A DNA stretch of 35,088 bases from Oscillospiraceae bacterium (GTDB taxonomy: Bacteria; Bacillota; Clostridia; Oscillospirales; Ruminococcaceae). The translations under genes and the position numbers were made by a program. Where the stretch lies: the NCBI GenBank assembly GCA_009777445.1, contig WRLV01000017.1, forward strand, positions 1 to 35,088, given 5' to 3'. Under the pieces are notes generated by a model. It did not search any database and was not told the DNA's origin. It saw only the letters and a program-made list of their open reading frames with translations. Positions within the stretch are counted from its first letter, which is position 1. The number at the start of each line of letters is the position of its first letter. Positions 8,501 to 34,889 of the stretch are shown in pieces.

Positions 8501-9226
8501 ATGGATATCTATGAGAGGGAACAAGCAATATACGATAATGCCGTTCAACGATTAGAAGAAGTTAAGAACGGGGATTCGTGTACCATTGATGATTATGGTG
8601 GGCTTTTAAGAGAATACGGCAGGCTGTTACGCCAAATGCGCCGTTTCACCACCATTTCAGACAGAACAGCAGAGACTCTTAACACCACCAAACAGGACTT
8701 GTTGGGAAAAGTAAACTTCGACCAACTCACAGAACTGTATAATAGGCGTTTTATGGAAGAAAGTTTTAACCGACTAATCAAGTCAATTTCGCGTTATGGT
8801 GGAATTTTAAGTGTTTTAATGCTTGACATTGACTTCTTTAAGCCGTATAATGATACATACGGGCATGCGCAAGGCGATGAATGTCTTAAAGTAGTCTCGA
8901 AGGCTATCGCACGCTGTGTCACGCGCTCAGATGATTTTGTGGCGCGATACGGAGGAGAGGAATTTGTGGCAGTGTTGCCAAACACCGATAAAAGAGGGGC
9001 TTGTTTGGTTGCCAAATCAATACTTGAAACGATTAGAGAATGTGATATTAAGCACGAAAACAGCAGAGTCGCTAAGTTTGTCACAATCTCAATCGGGGTG
9101 ACAACCGGGAATGTCGAACACTCGCAGGATTATTCTGATTTTATTAAGCAAGCGGATAAGGCTTTGTATATGTCAAAGCAAAACGGAAGAAACATGTACA
9201 CATTCCTTGACTTCAAGGAAGACTAA
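8501..9226 (+). CDS. SiaD-like diguanylate cyclase (GGDEF)
   Basis: A 241-residue cytoplasmic diguanylate cyclase making c-di-GMP from two GTP. Residues 30-70 form a helical stalk (LLREYGRLLRQMRRF, then SDRTAETL) typical of SiaD, where SiaC binds. The GGDEF domain covers about 72-238. DIDFFKPYND binds metal and GTP, and the active-site loop is GGEEF at 151-155. An RxxD inhibitory site is present at R142-D145, at the normal distance, so product inhibition is likely. It has no transmembrane segment and no other sensory domain, as expected of an enzyme switched by a partner protein. It lies 51 bases after the phosphatase gene. Confidence 0.92.
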   Translation: MDIYEREQAIYDNAVQRLEEVKNGDSCTIDDYGGLLREYGRLLRQMRRFTTISDRTAETLNTTKQDLLGKVNFDQLTELYNRRFMEESFNRLIKSISRYGGILSVLMLDIDFFKPYNDTYGHAQGDECLKVVSKAIARCVTRSDDFVARYGGEEFVAVLPNTDKRGACLVAKSILETIRECDIKHENSRVAKFVTISIGVTTGNVEHSQDYSDFIKQADKALYMSKQNGRNMYTFLDFKED

Positions 9227-9257
9227 TTTTAATAGCGTGGAAAGGACATGTCTTAAA

Positions 9258-9812
9258 ATGATAAAAATGCTTGATGCCTATAACATGGTTAAGGATGAAA
9301 ACATAATCCTTATTTACAGCGGCCCTATTTGGAACGATGGTATGCAGGGAATCGCTGAAAACCTAAAGAAGCGGTTAGAGTTTGATGAACTTCCGCTGTC
9401 TGCCTCACAGTCAGTTTTCTCAGTCTTTGTCGAGCAAATGAACAACATTTTAATGTATTCGGCAGAGAAACAACATCTGCACTTGAAAGAAAAAGAATTT
9501 GATGTGTCTAAGGGAATGTTGATTATCGGTGTAATCGAAGGCAAGTCGTATTTTATAAGAAGCGGAAATCTTGTTAAGAATTCCGGTATAGAACTGATAA
9601 AGTCACGAATAGACCATCTTAACACACTCGATAAACAACAACTGCGTAAATTCTATAAAGAGCAAATAAGAGCCGAAAACACCAACCCCGAGAGCAAGGG
9701 CGCGGGAATAGGCTTAATCGAAATAGCAAGGCGAGCGACAGGCAAAATCGAATATGAATTTACGCCCTATAAAGGTGACTTTTCGTTTTTTTCTATGTTA
9801 GTCTATATATAA
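9258..9812 (+). CDS. SiaB-like protein kinase (DUF6272)
   Basis: A 184-residue protein of the SiaB family, distantly related to GHKL anti-sigma kinases. In P. aeruginosa SiaB phosphorylates SiaC and so stops it from activating SiaD. The motif GAGIGLIEIARRATGKIEY near the C terminus matches the family's glycine-rich GxGxGLIxxAR segment, and an N-box-like region FVEQMNNILMYS lies near residue 60. I took ATG 9258, preceded by GGAAAGG and in the correct frame. The longer reading frame from 9111 would run far into the cyclase gene. The TAA stop is formed at the edge of a 68-bp repeat. Confidence 0.85.
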   Translation: MIKMLDAYNMVKDENIILIYSGPIWNDGMQGIAENLKKRLEFDELPLSASQSVFSVFVEQMNNILMYSAEKQHLHLKEKEFDVSKGMLIIGVIEGKSYFIRSGNLVKNSGIELIKSRIDHLNTLDKQQLRKFYKEQIRAENTNPESKGAGIGLIEIARRATGKIEYEFTPYKGDFSFFSMLVYI

Positions 9813-9878
9813 CCGGCGAGCCGCCGGTCGCAAACCGACATAATGTATGTTTTATTTGCAATAGCTCACGCGCCGGTT
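9811..9878. repeat. 68-bp dispersed palindromic element, copy 1
   Basis: Begins AACCGGCG (9811-9818) and ends CGCCGGTT (9871-9878), a perfect eight-base terminal inverted repeat. The first 18 bases also contain the local hairpin ACCGGCG-AGC-CGCCGGT. The central part is ATGTATGTTTTATTTGCAA followed by TAGCTCACG. It is the same length as the copy at 33986 and differs from it at about eight positions. It lies between the SiaB- and SiaC-like genes and supplies the last two bases of the upstream TAA. Confidence 0.9.
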
Positions 9879-9933
9879 TACATTGAATTTTTGGTGAGCT
9901 TGAATCACTACTTTAGGAGAGGAGAATTCCCTT

Positions 9934-13863: not shown

Positions 13864-13939
13864 TTCGGTGTTCATTCGGGACGAGCAAGCCCGTCCCCTA
13901 CAATAATTGTCAATTGTCAATTGTACATTGTCAATTGTT
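13864..13939 (-). repeat. Five-heptamer repeat with conserved palindromic tail
   Basis: Read on the minus strand, five heptamers (13939-13905: AACAATT, GACAATG, TACAATT, GACAATT, GACAATT) are followed by ATTGTAGGGGACGGGCTTGC-type sequence and GAATGAACACCGAA (to 13864). The same order, heptamers then tail, is seen at 34814-34889. The stop codon of gpr lies inside the heptamer block, so the repeat has replaced or capped the gene's 3' end. Confidence 0.88.
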
Positions 13940-14734
13940 CGTCAACTGTTTAAACTCTTCATCGCTGAGTGTGGGGTTTAGTATTCTGTTTAACGCGCTG
14001 CCAATCGTTCGGGCGTAGCGGTTTATAATCATGTCTATTTCGCGTGGGACGATAATTGTGTGGGCGAAGGCGTTGTCTTTGGTGACGTTGGCTGTGTCGG
14101 CTACAGTCGGCACGCCGATTGCCAACACGGGGACGTTAAGCGTTTTCTCTGATATTTCATGGCGCGCGTTTTTTACCCCACTGCCCGGGGCTATGCCTGA
14201 GTCGGCTATTTGTATTGTCTTTCCGAGCCGCTCAATGTCCATGCAGGCAAGGCTGTCTACCGCAATAACCAACTGCGGCTTTATTCCGTCACAAATATAT
14301 TTGAGCTGTAACGCGCTTTCAATCCCCGTTTGAGCTAACACGCCCGTTTCCACCACATAGACTTTGCGCATAGAAAGCTCTTCAAATTCCGCTAAAGCTG
14401 AGAAATGCGCGGTGGCGACAGTGTTCTTGACTGCTCTTACCCCAAGGGAGTCGGGGGTTATGTTCTCGTTTCCTAAACCCGCAACCAACACATTCCCCCC
14501 TTTAGGAATTAACGGCGACAACAACTGCTCTAACGCTGATTTTTCTGCCGACTGAGCACCGTCATTGCAAAAAAGGGTGATATATATTCCGGGGGGCTTA
14601 CCGATTGCGCGAGAGCCTTCTTCATTTAGATTAATACGCGTATAATTAACGCCTTCGATTGTGCCTTCAGTCAGCTCGTTGTCTTGATAATTTTCCTTTG
14701 GTAATATTTCTAAAGCAAGGTCAGTTCTGTTCAT
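13931..14734 (-). CDS. gpr: GPR germination/spore protease
   Basis: Spore protease that starts degradation of small acid-soluble spore proteins during germination. The 267-residue protein begins MNRTDLALE, matching the conserved RTDLAxE, and has GLGNENITPDSLGVRAV, PQLVIAVDSLAC and IQIADSGIAPGSGVKNAR, all hallmark GPR segments. It is shorter than the Bacillus enzymes (about 370 residues). The N-terminal propeptide of about 15 residues found in Bacillus GPR is absent: the ATG lies two residues before RTDLA with AGAGAGGA directly upstream. It is divergent from rpsT, a gene order widely kept in Bacillota. It would be expressed in the forespore; no sigma-G promoter was confidently located. Confidence 0.93.
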   Translation of the reverse strand: MNRTDLALEILPKENYQDNELTEGTIEGVNYTRINLNEEGSRAIGKPPGIYITLFCNDGAQSAEKSALEQLLSPLIPKGGNVLVAGLGNENITPDSLGVRAVKNTVATAHFSALAEFEELSMRKVYVVETGVLAQTGIESALQLKYICDGIKPQLVIAVDSLACMDIERLGKTIQIADSGIAPGSGVKNARHEISEKTLNVPVLAIGVPTVADTANVTKDNAFAHTIIVPREIDMIINRYARTIGSALNRILNPTLSDEEFKQLTNN

Positions 14735-16330: not shown

Positions 16331-18871
16331 ATGTCTAAAACTAAAAATCCAAAGACGGCGGTTAAAGAAGATAGCGAGAAAAAGAAACAAAAGGCGTTAG
16401 AAAATGAAAAGAAACGGCGACAGTTCTTGTCGATTGTGATTTTTGCCGTTGGTGTTTTGCTCACCCTGTTTTCTTTTTTCGGTTCACATGTCCCCGAAAG
16501 CGGTGAGAATTTAGCTAATCGCATACATAGCTTTTTAGCAGGAATGTTCGGGTTCACGTTGTTTTTCACGGGGCCGACTGTCATCTATTTTGCCGTGACA
16601 ATTGCGGCGGAAAAAGGCGGCTCGATTGCGTTGAAATTCATTCGTGCAATTTGCGCGCTCTTGCTTTTAAGCGCGGCCCTTCAAATTCTGTTTTGGGGCG
16701 AATTAGAGGGGGAGACATTCTTTGAAATAATAGGAAAAACTTATGAACGCGGTCTTGAACTTAGGGGCGGCGGTGTAGTGGGGCTTATCTTCGGCGCGCC
16801 GCTGTTATTGCTCGGAAGAGCGACAGCAAGCGTAATAATTATCCTAATTGTTTTTGTGATGGTAATGCTCATCGCGAACATCTCTCTTTTGGACTTTCTC
16901 AAAGCTTTGTCTACCCCTTTCAAAAAGATGGGGAAATTGATTTCAAAGCAGATGAAAGAGCGAAAAGAAGAGAGAAAAATCGCGAAGGAAGCCTACGCCG
17001 CGGAATATTCCTCAACCACACCACGTCCCACGAAGGAAAAGAAAATCGTTGTAAATAAAGAAGCTGATTCTATTCCACAACAAAAAGAAAGCGCGGATAC
17101 ACATTCCACCCAAAACCAAAATAGTGTTAACGATGAAGACGAGAACGCTGGTTTTCCCTTTGAGTTGTCGCCGCTCGACGAGAGCGAGAGCGAAAGCATG
17201 AGCGATAACGAAGAGCCGTTTTATCCGGAAGTGTCGCCTGTTTTTGACGATGAAATTGTTGATGGCGAAGAGACTGAAGAACCGAAAAAGCCCAGCCCAT
17301 TGTTTGAAGCGATTGATGCGTTTAAGGCTGAAAATGAGATTATTGAAGAGGTTGAGGTTGAAACTGTCGATGATGAGGAAGAGGTTGAAATTCTTGCAAA
17401 AAAATACACTTTGCCGCCAACTTTGTTGCTTAACGATATAATTTCCGAGAAAGACCCGTTAGAAATTGAAGCGGAGTTGCAGGGCAATGCCGATAAGCTG
17501 ATTGAAACGCTTAAAAGCTTCGGGGTTCAAACCAAAATTGTCGGAATTTGCCGCGGCCCATCGGTAACGCGCTATGAAATTCAGCCTGCGGCAGGGGTGA
17601 AAATTTCAAAAATAACCGGCTTAGTTGACGACATAGCCCTCAATTTAGCAACCGCCGGCGTTCGCATTGAAGCCCCAATTCCGAACAAAGCGGCTGTCGG
17701 AATAGAGGTTCCCAATAAAAAAGTTGATACTGTTCCTTTGCGCTCTCTCATTGACAGCGAAGAATTTAAGAGAGAACAAGGCAAGTTAGCGGCTGTCATC
17801 GGCAAAAATATCTCGGGTGAGATTATCATCGCCGATATTGCTAAAATGCCGCATATACTAATTGCAGGGACTACCGGTTCGGGTAAATCTGTTTGCGTTA
17901 ATTCGATTGTAATGAGCATACTTTTCCGTTCAACGCCCGATGAGGTGAGGTTGCTTATGATTGACCCTAAAGCGGTTGAATTTATGATTTACAACGGGAT
18001 TCCCCATCTTCTTATTCCCGTAGTCACCGACCCGAAAAAGGCGGCGGGCGCGTTGGGGTGGGCAGTCACCGAAATGCTTCATCGCTATTCACTTTTTGCC
18101 GAAAACAACGTGCGTGATTTGGGGGGTTATAATTCTTTAGCGAAGGGTAACCCCGAAATTTCTGTTTTGCCGCAAATTGTTATTTTCATTGATGAGCTTG
18201 CCGATTTGATGATGTCATCTCCCGGTGAGGTAGAGGAGAGTATCGGGCGTTTGGCACAAATGGCAAGGGCGGCGGGAATGCACCTTGTAATCGCCACGCA
18301 ACGCCCTTCGGTTAACGTGGTGACTGGCGTTATCAAAGCGAACATTCCAAGTCGAATTGCCCTGAAAGTAGCGTCACAGGTAGACAGTCGCGTGATTATT
18401 GACTCAGCCGGCGGCGCGGAAAAACTGTTGGGTAAGGGTGATATGCTTTATTTTCCTGTTGGCGCGCCGAAGCCTATGCGTGTTCAAGGGTGTTGGGTTT
18501 CTGACAAAGAGGTTGACAGAGTCGTAAACTTCATCAAGAACAGCTTCATTCTTGATTATGACGAAAGCGTAATTATAGAAATAGAGCGGCAGGCTGAGTT
18601 GGCGCAAAGCGGCAAGGGAAAAGCGGCTGAAAGCGGCGACATTGACCTGTCGGATGACAAATTAGATGAAGCAATAGAAGCCGTTGTCGAAGCAGGGCAA
18701 GCGAGTACATCATATTTGCAAAGAAAGCTAAAATTAGGTTACGGGCGCGCGGCACGCATTATCGACATTATGGAAGAACTGGGGGTAGTCGGCCCTTATG
18801 AGGGGAGCAAAGCGCGTGAAGTGCTGATGACAAAGCAGGACTGGTATGAGAGGAAGTTGAACAGACTGTGA
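16331..18871 (+). CDS. DNA translocase FtsK/SpoIIIE
   Basis: An 846-residue ring-forming DNA pump for chromosome segregation and, in spore formers, for moving DNA into the forespore. Four transmembrane helices lie in residues 35-190, then a basic segment and an acidic, low-complexity linker (about 200-350). The motor carries Walker A AGTTGSGKS near residue 511 and Walker B VIFIDELADLMM near 617. The C-terminal gamma winged helix (QASTSYLQRKLKLGYGRAAR, about 780-846) reads orienting DNA sequences. The protein is complete and of normal length. The start is ATG 16331 with AGGGG upstream. The stop overlaps the GTG start of rlmD. Confidence 0.95.
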   Translation: MSKTKNPKTAVKEDSEKKKQKALENEKKRRQFLSIVIFAVGVLLTLFSFFGSHVPESGENLANRIHSFLAGMFGFTLFFTGPTVIYFAVTIAAEKGGSIALKFIRAICALLLLSAALQILFWGELEGETFFEIIGKTYERGLELRGGGVVGLIFGAPLLLLGRATASVIIILIVFVMVMLIANISLLDFLKALSTPFKKMGKLISKQMKERKEERKIAKEAYAAEYSSTTPRPTKEKKIVVNKEADSIPQQKESADTHSTQNQNSVNDEDENAGFPFELSPLDESESESMSDNEEPFYPEVSPVFDDEIVDGEETEEPKKPSPLFEAIDAFKAENEIIEEVEVETVDDEEEVEILAKKYTLPPTLLLNDIISEKDPLEIEAELQGNADKLIETLKSFGVQTKIVGICRGPSVTRYEIQPAAGVKISKITGLVDDIALNLATAGVRIEAPIPNKAAVGIEVPNKKVDTVPLRSLIDSEEFKREQGKLAAVIGKNISGEIIIADIAKMPHILIAGTTGSGKSVCVNSIVMSILFRSTPDEVRLLMIDPKAVEFMIYNGIPHLLIPVVTDPKKAAGALGWAVTEMLHRYSLFAENNVRDLGGYNSLAKGNPEISVLPQIVIFIDELADLMMSSPGEVEESIGRLAQMARAAGMHLVIATQRPSVNVVTGVIKANIPSRIALKVASQVDSRVIIDSAGGAEKLLGKGDMLYFPVGAPKPMRVQGCWVSDKEVDRVVNFIKNSFILDYDESVIIEIERQAELAQSGKGKAAESGDIDLSDDKLDEAIEAVVEAGQASTSYLQRKLKLGYGRAARIIDIMEELGVVGPYEGSKAREVLMTKQDWYERKLNRL

Positions 18872-20310
18872 ACATAATCACAACAATCACCGACATAAAC
18901 AGCGACGGCTACGGCGTTGGGCGGACCGGCGAGCCGCCGGTGGCAGACCGTGAGTATGTTTGCGATACTCGCAATAGCTCACTCGCGGGTTTATCTTGTG
19001 CTTTCGTTGGAAGAGCCAACGAGCCGCCGAGAAAAGTTATCTTTGTTCCCTATACCGCTGTAGGGGACTGTGTGGAAGTGTCAGTTGTTAAGCAGACTAA
19101 GTCTATAATTTACGGCGAGTTGGTTCGGGTTTTAAGCCCTTCGCCTGACCGAATTGTTCTTGATTGTGAATATTTTGGTTGTGGAATGTCCGGCGGCTCT
19201 GTTAGATGTGGCGGTTGTGACTTTCGCCATATTTCATATGAAGCTGAGCTTAGAGCGAAGGCGAATTTTATAAAAAACGCATTCATTAGAATAGGCGGCT
19301 TTGAGCCTGAATTTCTGCCGCTTATTCCGAGCGTGAGCGTGGATTATTATCGAAATAACGTTCAATTTCAAGTTTGTAAAAATAAAGACGGTGAGTTAAT
19401 ATACGGGTTTTACGCGCCTAAAAGCAGAACAGTCGTTCCTCACAAAAATTGCAAATTATATCATCGTGAATTTGCTGAAATCGCCGAAAAGGCACTCGAA
19501 AAAGTTCGTGGGCGAATTCCAAAGCAAATTTGTGTGAGAAAAGGGCATTACAGCGGCGAAATAAATGCTGTTGCTGACAGACAAACACCGCTAATCGGAG
19601 CGCGTGACATTACCGACACTATGTGCGGGCTTAAAGTTGTAATTTCGCCGAACTCATTTTATCAAATCAACACCCCCACAGCCGAAAAGCTTTATGCTGT
19701 GATTAAGGAGTTTGTAGGGGGCGACAGTGCTCAAAAAGCTCAAGTTCAACCCGCGAGTGAGCTATTGCAAACCGCACAAACGTGTTCACGGTCTGCCACC
19801 ACTCAAAAAGCTCAAGTTCAACCCGCGAGTGAGCTATTGCAAACTGCACAAACGTGTTCACGGTCTGTCTCCGGCGACCCGCCGGTAGTTTTGGATGTTT
19901 ATTGTGGAATTGGGACAATTGGGTTGTCGCTTTCTGATGTGGCGAAAGAAGTTGTTGGTGTTGAATGTGTGAGAGCGGCTGTTAAAAATGCGGTTGTTAA
20001 TGCCAAACTCAATAATATTAAGAACGCACGATTTATCTGCGCCGATGCTTGTGAACTTCCCGAAAACATTCGCCCTGATGTGGTTATTCTCGACCCTGCA
20101 CGTAAGGGTTGCGACTTTTCTGTGTTAGAAAAGGTTAAGAATTTAAAACCTTCTAAAATAGTGATGGTTTCTTGCTCCCCCGCAACCGTGGCAAGAGATT
20201 GCGCTATATTAAGGCAATTCGGCTATGAGGTAACAAGGGTTCAAGGGGTAGACCTGTTCGCACGCACTAAGCATGTTGAGTGTGTGGTGGGGCTGACAGT
20301 TGACAGTTGA
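18868..20310 (+). CDS. rlmD: 23S rRNA (uracil-5-)-methyltransferase RlmD/RumA family, carrying in-frame repeat insertions
   Basis: SAM-dependent RNA m5U methyltransferase. Family features are the N-terminal TRAM domain, the iron-sulfur cysteines around CEYFGC and RCGGCDFRH, ISPNSFYQIN, the SAM motif VVLDVYCGIGTIGL, and the catalytic VMVSCSPATVARDC. The 480-residue protein is longer than expected because repeats are translated within it. About 30 extra residues split the TRAM loop between GVGR and RKVIFVPY (DNA 18921-19010). About 50 extra residues lie just before the SAM motif (19731-19887), including two 24-residue copies of QKAQVQPASELLQTAQTCSR. Both sites are likely surface loops. The start is GTG 18868, overlapping the ftsK stop. 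The gene ends within a heptamer repeat (LTVDS). It could equally be RlmCD-like; the exact uracil is not predictable. Confidence 0.88.
   Translation: MNIITTITDINSDGYGVGRTGEPPVADREYVCDTRNSSLAGLSCAFVGRANEPPRKVIFVPYTAVGDCVEVSVVKQTKSIIYGELVRVLSPSPDRIVLDCEYFGCGMSGGSVRCGGCDFRHISYEAELRAKANFIKNAFIRIGGFEPEFLPLIPSVSVDYYRNNVQFQVCKNKDGELIYGFYAPKSRTVVPHKNCKLYHREFAEIAEKALEKVRGRIPKQICVRKGHYSGEINAVADRQTPLIGARDITDTMCGLKVVISPNSFYQINTPTAEKLYAVIKEFVGGDSAQKAQVQPASELLQTAQTCSRSATTQKAQVQPASELLQTAQTCSRSVSGDPPVVLDVYCGIGTIGLSLSDVAKEVVGVECVRAAVKNAVVNAKLNNIKNARFICADACELPENIRPDVVILDPARKGCDFSVLEKVKNLKPSKIVMVSCSPATVARDCAILRQFGYEVTRVQGVDLFARTKHVECVVGLTVDS
18924..18991. repeat. 68-bp dispersed palindromic element, copy inside rlmD
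   Basis: Same 68-base length as the intergenic copies, starting GACCGGCG and ending CGCGGGTT. It shares CGAGCCGCCGGTGGCAGACCG and GCAATAGCTCAC with them. It is read through as part of RlmD (TGEPPVADREYV). The direct repeat CGTTGG flanks a 90-base (30-codon) insertion at 18915 and 19005. Confidence 0.87.
19731..19874. repeat. Two tandem 72-bp units inside rlmD derived from the 68-bp element
   Basis: Positions 19731-19802 and 19803-19874 are nearly identical 72-base (24-codon) units. Each holds a reverse-oriented copy of the 68-bp element beginning AACCCGCGAGTGAGC (at 19748 and 19820). Because 72 is a multiple of three, the frame is preserved and the protein has two copies of the same 24 residues. 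A tandem duplication after insertion is the simplest explanation. Confidence 0.9.
19820..19887 (-). repeat. 68-bp element, full-length inverted copy inside rlmD
   Basis: The reverse complement aligns over all 68 positions with the element at 33986 without gaps: AACCCGCG at one end, GGTCTG in the middle, and CCGGCGACCCGCCGGTA at the other. It is translated as the run before the SAM-binding motif of RlmD. The first tandem unit (19748-19800) is a copy truncated by the duplication. Confidence 0.87.
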
Positions 20311-20403
20311 CAATTGAGAGTTGACAGTTATGTAGGGGACGGGCTTGCCCGTACCTTCTCTTACAAACATCTGCAAATTTCGGTACGGGCAAGCCCGTAC
20401 CCT
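20295..20403. repeat. Five-heptamer repeat followed by a long palindrome between convergent genes
   Basis: Five heptamers at 20295-20329 (GACAGTT, GACAGTT, GACAATT, GAGAGTT, GACAGTT) contain the rlmD stop codon. After them GTAGGGGACGGGCTTGCC-type sequence (20332-20354) is mirrored by its reverse complement at 20380-20403, around a 25-base loop. The structure lies between convergent rlmD and the Rpn gene and could act as a two-way transcription barrier. It belongs to the same family as the copies at 13864 and 34814. Confidence 0.85.
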
Positions 20404-20423
20404 ACACAATTGCCTGTATTGTT

Positions 20424-31677: not shown

Positions 31678-31744
31678 TTTAAAGATATGGCAAACAATGC
31701 GGAATAAAGAAAATCACTCCGCAGGCGGTTAAATTTATGTGTTT

Positions 31745-31823
31745 GTTGGTTGGTTGGTTGGTTGGTTGGTTGGTTGGTTGGTTGGTTGGTTGGTTGGTTG
31801 GTTGGTTGGTTGGTTGGTTGGTT
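31745..31823. repeat. Tetranucleotide microsatellite (GTTG)n, 79 bases
   Basis: An uninterrupted period-four run, 19.75 units, GTTG on the plus strand and AACC on the minus strand. It lies between the divergent GT2 operon and htpG, directly at the predicted start of minus-strand transcription. Such runs change length by slippage. Reading frames through it on either strand give only GWLV or TNQP repeats and are not considered genes. Confidence 0.98.
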
Positions 31824-31832
31824 CTACTTATA

Positions 31833-31861
31833 ATTATAGCACATTTAGTCATATTTGTCAA
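31833..31861 (-). promoter_or_regulatory. Minus-strand promoter P2, next to the AACC repeat
   Basis: TTGACA (31861-31856), a 17-base spacer and TATAAT (31838-31833). Both boxes are consensus. The predicted start lies at the edge of the microsatellite. It resembles P1 over about 30 bases and may be a duplication of it. Confidence 0.85.
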
Positions 31862-31886
31862 TCCATTCTTTTGTATTCTTTTAAAC

Positions 31887-31915
31887 ATTATATCACCTTT
31901 ACCAATATTTGTCAA
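31887..31915 (-). promoter_or_regulatory. Minus-strand promoter P1
   Basis: TTGACA (31915-31910), a 17-base spacer and TATAAT (31892-31887), 54 bases upstream of P2. The spacer begins AATAT and contains TAAA like that of P2. Both drive transcription toward the GT2 operon. Confidence 0.85.
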
Positions 31916-31977
31916 TAGGTTTTTGAAATTTTATTTTAACTGCCATCACAAATTAAACAAAATTTCAATTTTCCCTC

Positions 31978-32006
31978 TTGACAAGTCTTGGGGTTTTGTG
32001 TATAAT
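31978..32006 (+). promoter_or_regulatory. Promoter of htpG
   Basis: TTGACA (31978-31983), a 17-base spacer and TATAAT (32001-32006), both perfect consensus boxes. The predicted start near 32013 lies inside the CIRCE element, so HrcA binding would block transcription. Confidence 0.92.
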
Positions 32007-32010
32007 TATA

Positions 32011-32037
32011 TTAGCACTCTGGATAAAAGAGTGCTAA
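32011..32037 (+). promoter_or_regulatory. CIRCE operator (HrcA binding site)
   Basis: TTAGCACTC, nine bases, GAGTGCTAA: a perfect CIRCE element. HrcA represses heat-shock genes through this site. It overlaps the predicted transcription start of htpG and lies 24 bases before its ATG. The element would also be present at the 5' end of the message. Confidence 0.96.
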
Positions 32038-32061
32038 TATAAAACAGAGAGGACGATGAAA

Positions 32062-33987
32062 ATGGAGAAAAAACAGTTTCAGGCTGAGTCAAAGCGTATG
32101 CTTGAGATGATGATTAACTCAATCTATACCCACAAAGAAATTTTTTTGCGTGAGCTGATTTCAAACTCAAGCGATGCTGTTGATAAGCTGTATTACAAGT
32201 CGTTGAGTGAGAATATCGGGCTTTCACGCGGCGACTTTGAAATTAACATTTCAATTGCTAAAGATGCCCGCGTTTTAACGATTTTCGATAACGGCATCGG
32301 AATGGGCAAAGATGAGCTTGAACAAAACTTAGGCATAATTGCCAAGAGCGGCTCTTTGCAGTTTAAAAACGATGTTTTGGGGGCAAAAGATGACAAGAAC
32401 GCCAATGATTTAAATGATTTAAGCGTTATCGGTCAGTTCGGCGTTGGGTTTTATTCCGCTTTTATGGTGTCGTCAAATGTTGAAGTAATCTCAAAGGCAT
32501 ACGGGAGCGATAAGGCGTATCTTTGGAGTTCGTCCGGGGTTGACGGTTACACGATAGAGCCTTGCGAGTGCGACTTTGAATACGGCACTAAAATTACACT
32601 CTTTATAAAAGAAAACACCGATGATGAAGACTATGATGAATTTTTGGCAGAGTATAAAATTAAAAGCTTGGTGTCAAAATATTCTGATTATATTCGCTAT
32701 CCTATAAAAATGGAATGTTCTAAGCGCGTACCTAAATCCGGCAGCGATGAAGACAATCCACAATTTGAAGAAGTAAAAGAAATTTTGACACTCAACAGCA
32801 TGATTCCAATCTGGAAAAAAAGCAAGTCTGAGCTTAGTGATGATGACTATAATGAATTTTATAAGTCTAAATTTCATGATTTTAACGCGCCTATTGCCCA
32901 TGTTCACTCGAAAACAGAAGGCGCGGCAACCTACAGCGCGCTGATGTTTATTCCCCAAAAAGCCCCTTATGATTTTTATACTAAAGAGTATGAAAAAGGG
33001 CTTCAACTTTATTCAAGCGGCGTTATGATTATGGAAAAATGCGCCGATTTGTTGCCAGACCATTTTAGTTTTGTTAAGGGATTGGTTGACAGCGACGATT
33101 TATCACTGAATATTTCAAGAGAAATGTTACAACACGACCGCCAGCTGAAAGTAATGTCAAAGGCGATTGAACGCAGCATCAAAAATGAATTGAAGAAAAT
33201 GCAAAGCACTGACCGCGAAAAATACGCTGAATTTTGGGGCTGTTTCGGGACACAAATTAAATTCGGGATTTATAATTCTTTCGGCGCGGCACGCGAAATG
33301 CTTCAAGATTTATTAATGTTTTATTCATCATCTGAAGAAAAATTGATTACTCTTTCGGAATATGTTTCACGAATGAAAGAGTCACAAAAAGAAATATATT
33401 TCGCAAGCGGCGGAAGTGTTGCGCGCATATCTGCCTTGCCGCAGGTTGAAACCGTAAAAGATAAAGGCTTTGAAATTCTTTATCTCACCGATAATGTTGA
33501 CGAGTTTTGCCTTCAAATGCTAAATGCCTATGAAGAAAAACCGTTTAAGTCAATCCAAAGCGCGGACTTAGACCTTGAAACAGACGAAGAAAAGCAGGAG
33601 ATTAAAGCCAAAAACGATGACAACAAAGCCATGTTTGAGTTTATGAAAGAAGCGTTGGGCGATAAAGTCAGCTTTGTTCGGCTGTCGCAAAAACTGAAGT
33701 CGCATCCCGTTTGTATTTCGGGCAGCGGGGCATTGTCCGTTGAAATGGAAAAAGTATTAGCCGCCATGCCGACCGATGGGCAAAACCGCGCAAAGGCAGA
33801 CAAAGTGCTTGAAATAAACGCTTCCCACCCAATCTTTGACAAGCTGACGTTTTTGTTCGACAACGATAAAGAGACATTAAAACTCTACAGCGACATATTA
33901 TATAACCAGGCATTGCTTATTGAGGGGGTGAATATTGACGACCCATCTGACTTTGTTAAAAACATGAGCGAAATTCTATCAAGATAA
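32062..33987 (+). CDS. htpG: Molecular chaperone HtpG (bacterial Hsp90)
   Basis: A 641-residue Hsp90 chaperone, complete. The N-terminal GHKL ATP site is intact: LRELISNSSDAVDKL (N-box), IFDNGIGMGKDEL (G1) and IGQFGVGFYSAF (G2). The middle domain has GLVDSDDLSLNISREMLQ with the catalytic arginine region, and the C-terminal dimerisation domain ends at the stop. I prefer ATG 32062 (MEKKQFQAES), nine bases after AGAGG; an ATG two codons earlier at 32056 is only three bases from it. It is controlled by a consensus promoter and CIRCE. The TAA stop is built from the edge of a 68-bp repeat. Confidence 0.97.
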   Translation: MEKKQFQAESKRMLEMMINSIYTHKEIFLRELISNSSDAVDKLYYKSLSENIGLSRGDFEINISIAKDARVLTIFDNGIGMGKDELEQNLGIIAKSGSLQFKNDVLGAKDDKNANDLNDLSVIGQFGVGFYSAFMVSSNVEVISKAYGSDKAYLWSSSGVDGYTIEPCECDFEYGTKITLFIKENTDDEDYDEFLAEYKIKSLVSKYSDYIRYPIKMECSKRVPKSGSDEDNPQFEEVKEILTLNSMIPIWKKSKSELSDDDYNEFYKSKFHDFNAPIAHVHSKTEGAATYSALMFIPQKAPYDFYTKEYEKGLQLYSSGVMIMEKCADLLPDHFSFVKGLVDSDDLSLNISREMLQHDRQLKVMSKAIERSIKNELKKMQSTDREKYAEFWGCFGTQIKFGIYNSFGAAREMLQDLLMFYSSSEEKLITLSEYVSRMKESQKEIYFASGGSVARISALPQVETVKDKGFEILYLTDNVDEFCLQMLNAYEEKPFKSIQSADLDLETDEEKQEIKAKNDDNKAMFEFMKEALGDKVSFVRLSQKLKSHPVCISGSGALSVEMEKVLAAMPTDGQNRAKADKVLEINASHPIFDKLTFLFDNDKETLKLYSDILYNQALLIEGVNIDDPSDFVKNMSEILSR

Positions 33988-34053
33988 CCGGCGAGCCGCC
34001 GGTGGCAGACCGGGAATATGTATGTTTTATTTGCAACAGCTCACGCGCCGGTT
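33986..34053. repeat. 68-bp dispersed palindromic element, copy after htpG
   Basis: Starts AACCGGCG and ends CGCCGGTT, with the local hairpin ACCGGCG-AGC-CGCCGGT and the shared TATGTTTTATTTGCAA core. It is 68 bases, the same as the copy at 9811. Its first two bases complete the htpG TAA stop. The intergenic tail to 34080 contains a second CTGGCAGACCAG similar to the element's GGTGGCAGACCG. The reverse strand is open through it (LKPARELLQ...), the same frame that is translated in rlmD. Confidence 0.9.
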
Positions 34054-34101
34054 TCAGGCGTGCTGTCGCTGGCAGACCAGAATTTTTAGGAGGAAATAAT
34101 A

Positions 34102-34813: not shown

Positions 34814-34889
34814 GGCAGTTGACAGTTGACAATTGATAGTTGACAGTAATTGTAGGGGACGGGCTTGCCCGTCCCGAATGAACACCGAA
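34814..34889 (+). repeat. Five-heptamer repeat with conserved palindromic tail
   Basis: Heptamers GGCAGTT, GACAGTT, GACAATT, GATAGTT and GACAGTA (34814-34848), then ATTGTAGGGGACGGGCTTGC-type sequence and GAATGAACACCGAA (to 34889). The tail matches that at 13864-13904 almost base for base. It starts two bases after the BI-1 stop codon. Confidence 0.88.

Follow-up and report, generated by a model that had tools for sequence, protein, structure and literature searches.

Introduction

Palindromic elements that insert in frame into genes have been described above all in Rickettsia and Wolbachia. These elements (RPEs and WPEs) are reported as repeats that lie between genes as well as in frame inside conserved genes, where the inserts are solvent-exposed and a host enzyme is still active (PMC3767692, PMC2229807, PMC10969869). 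RPEs are given as 105 to 146 bp in length, with long stem-loops and terminal inverted repeats (PMC2229807). GTAG/CGTC REPs are small hairpins with alternative complementary stem bases, and units have been found inside ORFs, including the genes for DNA polymerase I and DnaE; the ends of GTAG REPs often supply TAG stop codons (PMC3733652). Intragenic REPs are recorded in several phyla, most of them in Opitutus terrae and R. conorii, and the phyla named there for GTAG or CGTC REPs do not include Firmicutes (PMC3733652). Coding palindromes have also been recorded in the archaeon Methanocaldococcus jannaschii, and PARCELs are described as tandem amphipathic repeat domains (PMC2996958). No clostridial or Firmicutes case of a coding palindrome came up in searches of the open-licence literature, in line with the initial annotation of the DNA studied here, which had expected such an element to be a new case.

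The window, that is, the whole stretch of 35,088 nucleotides that was analysed, is contig C17 of an Oscillospiraceae assembly of 1,983,484 bases in 91 contigs (91.57% complete, contamination 0.52%). This single metagenome-assembled genome (MAG) is the basis for all counts in the source species. A coding hairpin element lies inside the rlmD gene of the window, and dozens of conserved genes of the genome contain copies, oriented either way, with their frame intact. The element is very probably a non-autonomous hairpin repeat dispersed through the genome, which is mobile or once was, is present in low copy in other species of the genus and was amplified here into a short and a long form.

Anatomy and copy number of the element

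The hairpin core, ACCGGCGAGCCGCCGGT (17 nt), has 81 matches at no more than two mismatches in the 1.98-Mb assembly, 19 of them exact, and a control pattern (the core read in reverse) has none in the same assembly. With a covariance model of 21 long copies, 86 places were found at E <= 1. Thirty of these score at least 46 bits and represent the long form, including five that lie outside the stretches retrieved before the covariance-model search. The element, initially picked out at four places in the window, is confirmed by this search as a repeat of the wider genome. The short form consists of the hairpin followed by GGCAGA, about 21 to 23 nt in all, and sometimes occurs in 21-nt tandem arrays. 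The long form, of about 79 nt, consists of two local hairpins and a right half.

Pairing in the 21 long copies is strongest in the left hairpin (columns 1-7 with 11-17), where 93.2% of the cells are paired and four of the seven pairs have changed on both sides. Helix 19-23/44-48 is 89.5% paired, with no pair changed on both sides, and helix 27-32/37-42 is 80.0% paired with three such pairs; these values come from a structure derived from one alignment row, which favours that structure over slid controls. The outer arms have 78.6% of their cells paired and no pair altered on both sides. The initial annotation had drawn the element as one 68-bp palindrome, an anatomy that was dropped because the outer arms do not covary, whereas the local hairpins do. 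Among the core matches with exactly two mismatches, 10 of 33 carry compensatory changes, against a random expectation of 1.7%. Compared with their shuffles, six single copies have only moderately better folding energies (z from -1.1 to -3.3). Rfam gave no match to the window, nor any that overlaps the element at two further loci (L055 and L060).

The element in rlmD

All four places named at the outset (9811, 33986, 18924 and, reversed, 19820) hold the element; its borders by the covariance model are given in Table 1. The three plus-strand starts had each been set one base early, by counting AACCGG; in the rlmD copy, the base preceding ACCGG is G, not A.

Table 1. The element and its host gene rlmD in the window.
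Feature	Position	Strand	Remarks
Long copy, outside genes	9812-9890	+	86.4 bits; begins on the final base of the TAA stop of ORF 9111-9812
Host gene rlmD, RlmD-family rRNA methyltransferase	18868-20310	+	TIGR00479, 256.8 bits (cut-off 183.55); open through all inserts
Long copy in rlmD	18925-19003	+	86.7 bits; sense, frame 0, TGEPPVADREYVCDTRNSSLAGLSCAF
Probable decayed short unit in rlmD	19015-19032	+	Read ANEPPR, same phase; by eye, no model score
Probable decayed short unit in rlmD	19180-19203	-	Antisense, CGMSGGSV (cf. SATGGSPV), residues 105-112; by eye
Long copy in rlmD, altered hairpin end	19736-19800 (19803 by covariance model)	-	64.7 bits; antisense
Long copy in rlmD	19808-19886	-	89.6 bits; antisense, KAQVQPASELLQTAQTCSRSVSGDPPV
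Long copy, outside genes	33987-34065	+	90.5 bits; begins on the final base of the htpG TAA stop

The claim that rlmD is read through its inserts without a stop or frameshift, and in both orientations, holds. The two copies first seen there are real, but the count was incomplete: an antisense long copy with an altered hairpin end had been overlooked, as had, probably, two decayed short units, so that the gene carries one sense and two antisense long copies. The antisense pair is matched by a direct repeat (19730-19800 and 19802-19872; spacing 72 nt, 71 nt long, 96% identity).

A first search for RlmD matched 48 of 60 genus genomes, and 23 relatives, with 48 to 58% identity to the protein, went into the alignment. 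Residues 289-339, made by the antisense tandem pair, are absent in all 23, and residues 20-51, made by the sense copy, have a counterpart in at most one. Measured between flanking positions, the stretch 12-62 holds 51 residues in the window against 18 to 25 in all 23 genus relatives, and the stretch 270-346 holds 77 against 26 in all 23. The best homologue of known structure, PDB chain 5xj1_A, likewise skips query residues 283-338. Relatives thus lack the added residues at the borders first proposed, the element is present elsewhere in the genome, and the structure prediction described next puts the residues in low-confidence loops, so that the original interpretation, a selfish-type element translated in frame in either orientation, is supported.

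The AlphaFold2 model of RlmD, computed from the 24-sequence alignment, has a mean pLDDT of 81.5 and a pTM of 0.81. Runs of three or more residues with pLDDT below 50 occur only at 27-51, 106-109 and 289-333, and all three fall within stretches absent in relatives (20-51, 105-112 and 289-339). The first of these loops lies between strands 16-19 and 57-60, a pair that we take to be the TRAM hairpin, and the last follows helix 270-284 and precedes strand 340-344, directly ahead of the SAM motif. The inserts are thus predicted to be unstructured, and the model places low-confidence loops at both of the sites where surface loops had been suspected. The middle stretch, CGMSGGSV in the cysteine-cluster loop (residues 105-112), looks like a decayed antisense short unit. 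Only one of the 23 relatives (G021, locus L102) has residues at this position, and these form a different insert of its own, which indicates that the loop tolerates inserts.

Two other kinds of repeat were observed in the window. A second repeat family, of CAATTGACAATTG type and partly beside a palindrome GGGACGGGCTTGCCCGTCCC, lies at 1705-1858, 13864-13944, 20294-20412 and 34816-34889; the last residues of RlmD, TVDS, and the stop codon fall inside a copy of it (20297-20331), so that rlmD is touched by two repeat families. Upstream of htpG, a long run of the tetranucleotide GGTT (31745-31823) gives an ORF of WLVG repeats (31737-32042), probably a spurious one.

Other host genes

In a Pfam scan, 39 of 40 copy-bearing ORFs had a match at E <= 0.001, as did eight of ten further ORFs. 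Altogether 48 copy-bearing hosts have a Pfam or NCBIfam match at this level (RlmD included, via NCBIfam), 45 of them over the curated cut-off and three (L044, L047 and L058) only below it. No family match was obtained for L033:6125 and L073, nor for L069, in which the copy is in phase. Hosts include NspC, HisI, RsgA, KsgA, GlmU, a Tex-like protein, RNase R and PriA, as well as IspH-RpsA, DNA polymerase I, DnaE, GyrB, SecA, PurD, dihydroorotase and a XerC-like integrase, the names DnaE, GyrB and XerC being assigned from Pfam domains.

Comparison with the best PDB homologue shows the element residues being skipped in five of these proteins: KsgA (query 151 to 181 against 144 to 147), Tex (242 to 282 against 251 to 268), GlmU (102 to 133 against 101 to 105), RsgA (62 to 95 against 64 to 70) and NspC (338 to 383 against 287 to 299). 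For DNA polymerase I, the comparison with a solved homologue is not sharp around the element. KsgA could be followed further, with matches in 55 of 60 genus genomes, the source genome included. In G070 and G045 the matches up to residue 153 and from residue 181 lie on directly adjacent bases, and the insert is therefore residues 154-180, or 81 nt. Judging from these alignments, the element is missing at these borders from the orthologues examined. The copy precedes the first matched domain in eight hosts (PriA, GyrB, ArgJ, BioY, HisI, a nucleotidyltransferase, a DRTGG protein and, for its first copy, NspC), and a wrong start codon is possible in these cases.

Copies at stop codons

The placement and phase of the core were counted at the 67 sites with at most one substitution, using ORFs of at least 100 aa and taking the longest ORF without a family check. 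Forty-eight sites lie inside an ORF, 17 sense and 31 antisense, and 19 lie outside. Fifteen of the 19 outside sites have the stop of an ORF on their own strand no more than 3 nt away and share the orientation of that gene; at 13 of these, the final base of TAA or TAG stands directly ahead of CCGG. At htpG, the C-terminus has been kept beside the copy: the protein has matches in 39 of 40 genomes, and most of those of full length end between query residues 636 and 643 (of 643), with the matches in G023 and G043 extending to residue 643.

A site so close to the stop, always gene-oriented, is what would be expected of a functional RNA hairpin, the transcript of which acts after stops in mRNA 3'-end protection, termination or attenuation, with in-gene copies as by-products. 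The preservation of the stem through paired substitutions also fits such a role. However, most core sites lie within ORFs, and the majority of those are antisense; the KsgA and RlmD inserts are missing from relatives; and the Rfam comparisons above gave no match. We regard this explanation as improbable and prefer the reading of a dispersed repeat.

A YA dinucleotide precedes 13 of 15 stop copies, 15 of 27 antisense copies and 2 of 11 sense copies; a general YA target, which the pooled flank profile had suggested, was rejected on the figure for sense in-gene copies. MITEs are marked by terminal inverted repeats and target-site duplication; no shared duplication was seen by eye in the long-copy flanks, for which there is no close empty site to compare, and the relatives, which are distant (RlmD identity as given above), provided no empty site at the DNA level.

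Reading phase inside genes

Forty-three of the 48 in-ORF core sites are read ACC GGC ... CCG GT, giving TGEPPV in sense and TGGSPV in antisense, and five are read otherwise. Because the hairpin is a palindrome, the two readings amount to the same phase viewed from opposite strands. In 40 family-matched hosts, counted from nhmmer matches of at least 8 bits and leaving out short matches without the hairpin as well as L069, the favoured phase is used by all 20 long copies and by 37 of the 39 short ones, in 38 of 40 hosts; the off-phase copies are in GH94 and HflX. With eight later hosts, a hand count gives 63 of 68 copies in phase. The copies added by hand are six in phase (OKR decarboxylase, SMC-like, ArgJ, RNase HII, RuvX and DprA) and three off phase (two in FliH and one in a methyltransferase), and the DprA match, at 8.4 bits, may be due to chance. 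Random placement would put a copy in the favoured phase with a frequency of 0.35, or 0.43 with a YA target. Three long in-ORF copies found later (on C1, C45 and C30) are all in the favoured phase. Among eight weaker places, five fall in ORFs of 80 aa or more; two of the five are in phase and three are off, two of the latter without the hairpin.

Part of this preference has a plain cause in the long copies. Three of the six frames of the long consensus contain a stop that closes them, and two TGA codons stand at the end of sense frame 0; the remaining two frames are open, and one of these is used by none of the 20 long copies. The excess of antisense over sense among the long copies of the 40 hosts (14 against 6) fits this arrangement, in which three frames are closed and a sense copy in frame 0 stays open only when both TGA codons have been lost. 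The consensus stops do not account for the phase of short copies. In the alignment rows, a stop in the sense frame is found in none of five sense in-gene copies and in all 11 antisense copies, the own frame of which has none (0 of 11). The stop-free sense copies were dropped as proof of selection, since a copy within an ORF cannot hold an in-frame stop and the result is largely true by construction; the short row L030 was excluded from that comparison.

The rule does not extend to the whole family, a generalisation that was abandoned. In five relatives, the favoured phase is used by 14 of 27 units within ORFs of at least 150 aa, a count drawn from 40 matches at no more than three mismatches, some of them perhaps chance, and this differs from the 43 of 48 short copies in the source genome (Fisher p 0.0005). 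Because the rule fails in these relatives, it cannot stem entirely from other peptides being disfavoured.

A single phase in the source genome, and the 21-nt tandem arrays of some hosts, could also be explained at the protein level, with TGEPPVA/SATGGSPV repeats being useful flexible linkers that spread by within-gene duplication and recombination, and DNA likeness being secondary. We consider this very unlikely: the 19 core sites outside ORFs carry the same DNA, full long copies among them, both strands are used, the stems change in pairs, and 13 of the 27 units in relatives are read in other phases. The evidence agrees better with a repeat that was dispersed as DNA.

Distribution beyond the source genome

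At no more than three mismatches, the short unit occurs in 26 of 60 genus genomes, the source included, with 81 matches in the source, at most 15 elsewhere and none for the control. With stricter filters, the long-form model gives weak matches (21.8 to 25.8 bits) in 5 of the 59 other genus genomes and a strong match in none of the 59. A 24-nt piece, at no more than two mismatches, was found in none of 390 other genomes of the class. Carriage as phage or plasmid cargo was dropped as an idea after blastn of a 111-nt query gave no match in phages or plasmids, and a 25-nt pattern has no exact match in IMG/VR. Units in relatives can have 3' tails of their own, such as GGCAATAT in several units of G043 (L204-L218) and TGCCGGCTTCGCCGGA beside two units of G021 (L192-L196), and these distinct tails hint at species-specific subfamilies of the unit.

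That the element is an artefact of assembly or contamination is scarcely credible: the MAG is a single assembly in 91 contigs, and assemblies err at repeats, but its contamination is 0.52%, the inserts keep frame in dozens of genes and short units are present in other assemblies of the genus.

Origin and spread

The dispersed hairpin repeat would have spread as DNA, perhaps via a hairpin intermediate, and insertions that broke genes would have been lost through selection. The survivors would then be copies placed right at a stop codon, or copies whose translation is a small linker rich in turns (TGEPPVA or SATGGSPV). We infer that the added loops are merely tolerated by the host, that is, that they are neutral. 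As for the machinery, Y1_Tnp (PF01797) has no match in the source assembly, which is 91.6% complete, and a RAYT-driven REP was rejected on that basis. The same family was found in one of ten relatives tested. This sole protein (L171, at G042:C12:1099-1455) belongs to a genome with three short-unit matches at two to three mismatches.

A further suggestion, which we put forward tentatively and hold to be somewhat doubtful, is that the element is a "translation-ready" selfish hairpin. The favoured phase would give a near-identical linker from either strand (TGEPPV or TGGSPV), so that both orientations would be tolerated even in essential enzymes, and sites at TAA or TAG stop codons would be likewise harmless. 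If true, a translation-ready hairpin would have decorated about 50 proteins here and would keep supplying a gut clostridium with new protein loops.

Comparison with known systems

A separate family of in-frame palindromic elements in a gut clostridial lineage would widen the range over which such elements are known. With about 48 family-supported hosts, including genes for replication, ribosome assembly and secretion, it would show that mobile hairpins can supply core enzymes with extra peptides far beyond the intracellular Rickettsiales. Insert-free orthologues are present in many sequenced species of the genus, which makes it possible to test questions not settled by RPEs: whether such inserts are tolerated noise or raw material, and what sets the surviving frame and place.

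Like RPEs and WPEs, the element is a dispersed palindromic repeat that lies between genes and in frame in conserved genes, and orthologues without the insert can be found (RlmD in 23 of 23 relatives, KsgA, and six PDB comparisons covering RlmD, KsgA, Tex, GlmU, RsgA and NspC). The placement of an insert in a non-structured loop, a further likeness, was seen in RlmD only (pLDDT below 50). It differs from RPEs in its lengths of about 21 to 23 and 79 nt, its local hairpins, its outer arms without covariation and its clostridial host, and in that the hairpin is read in one phase on both strands; the distinction from RPEs is made by description. With GTAG/CGTC REPs the element shares a stem of 5 to 13 bp, a short loop and alternative complementary stem bases. 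In contrast to these, the terminal tetranucleotide GTAG or CGTC is missing from the flank profile of the 67 core sites, and the RAYT (Y1) transposase of GTAG REPs has no counterpart in the source assembly by the PF01797 search. The palindromes of M. jannaschii and the PARCELs are similar in being palindromic DNA that codes inside proteins; unlike PARCELs, and again compared by description, the inserts here are mostly linker-like and lie in housekeeping enzymes. Elements of this kind are already known, as RPEs/WPEs and intragenic REPs, and it is the sequence family, the clostridial host and the one-phase reading that look new.
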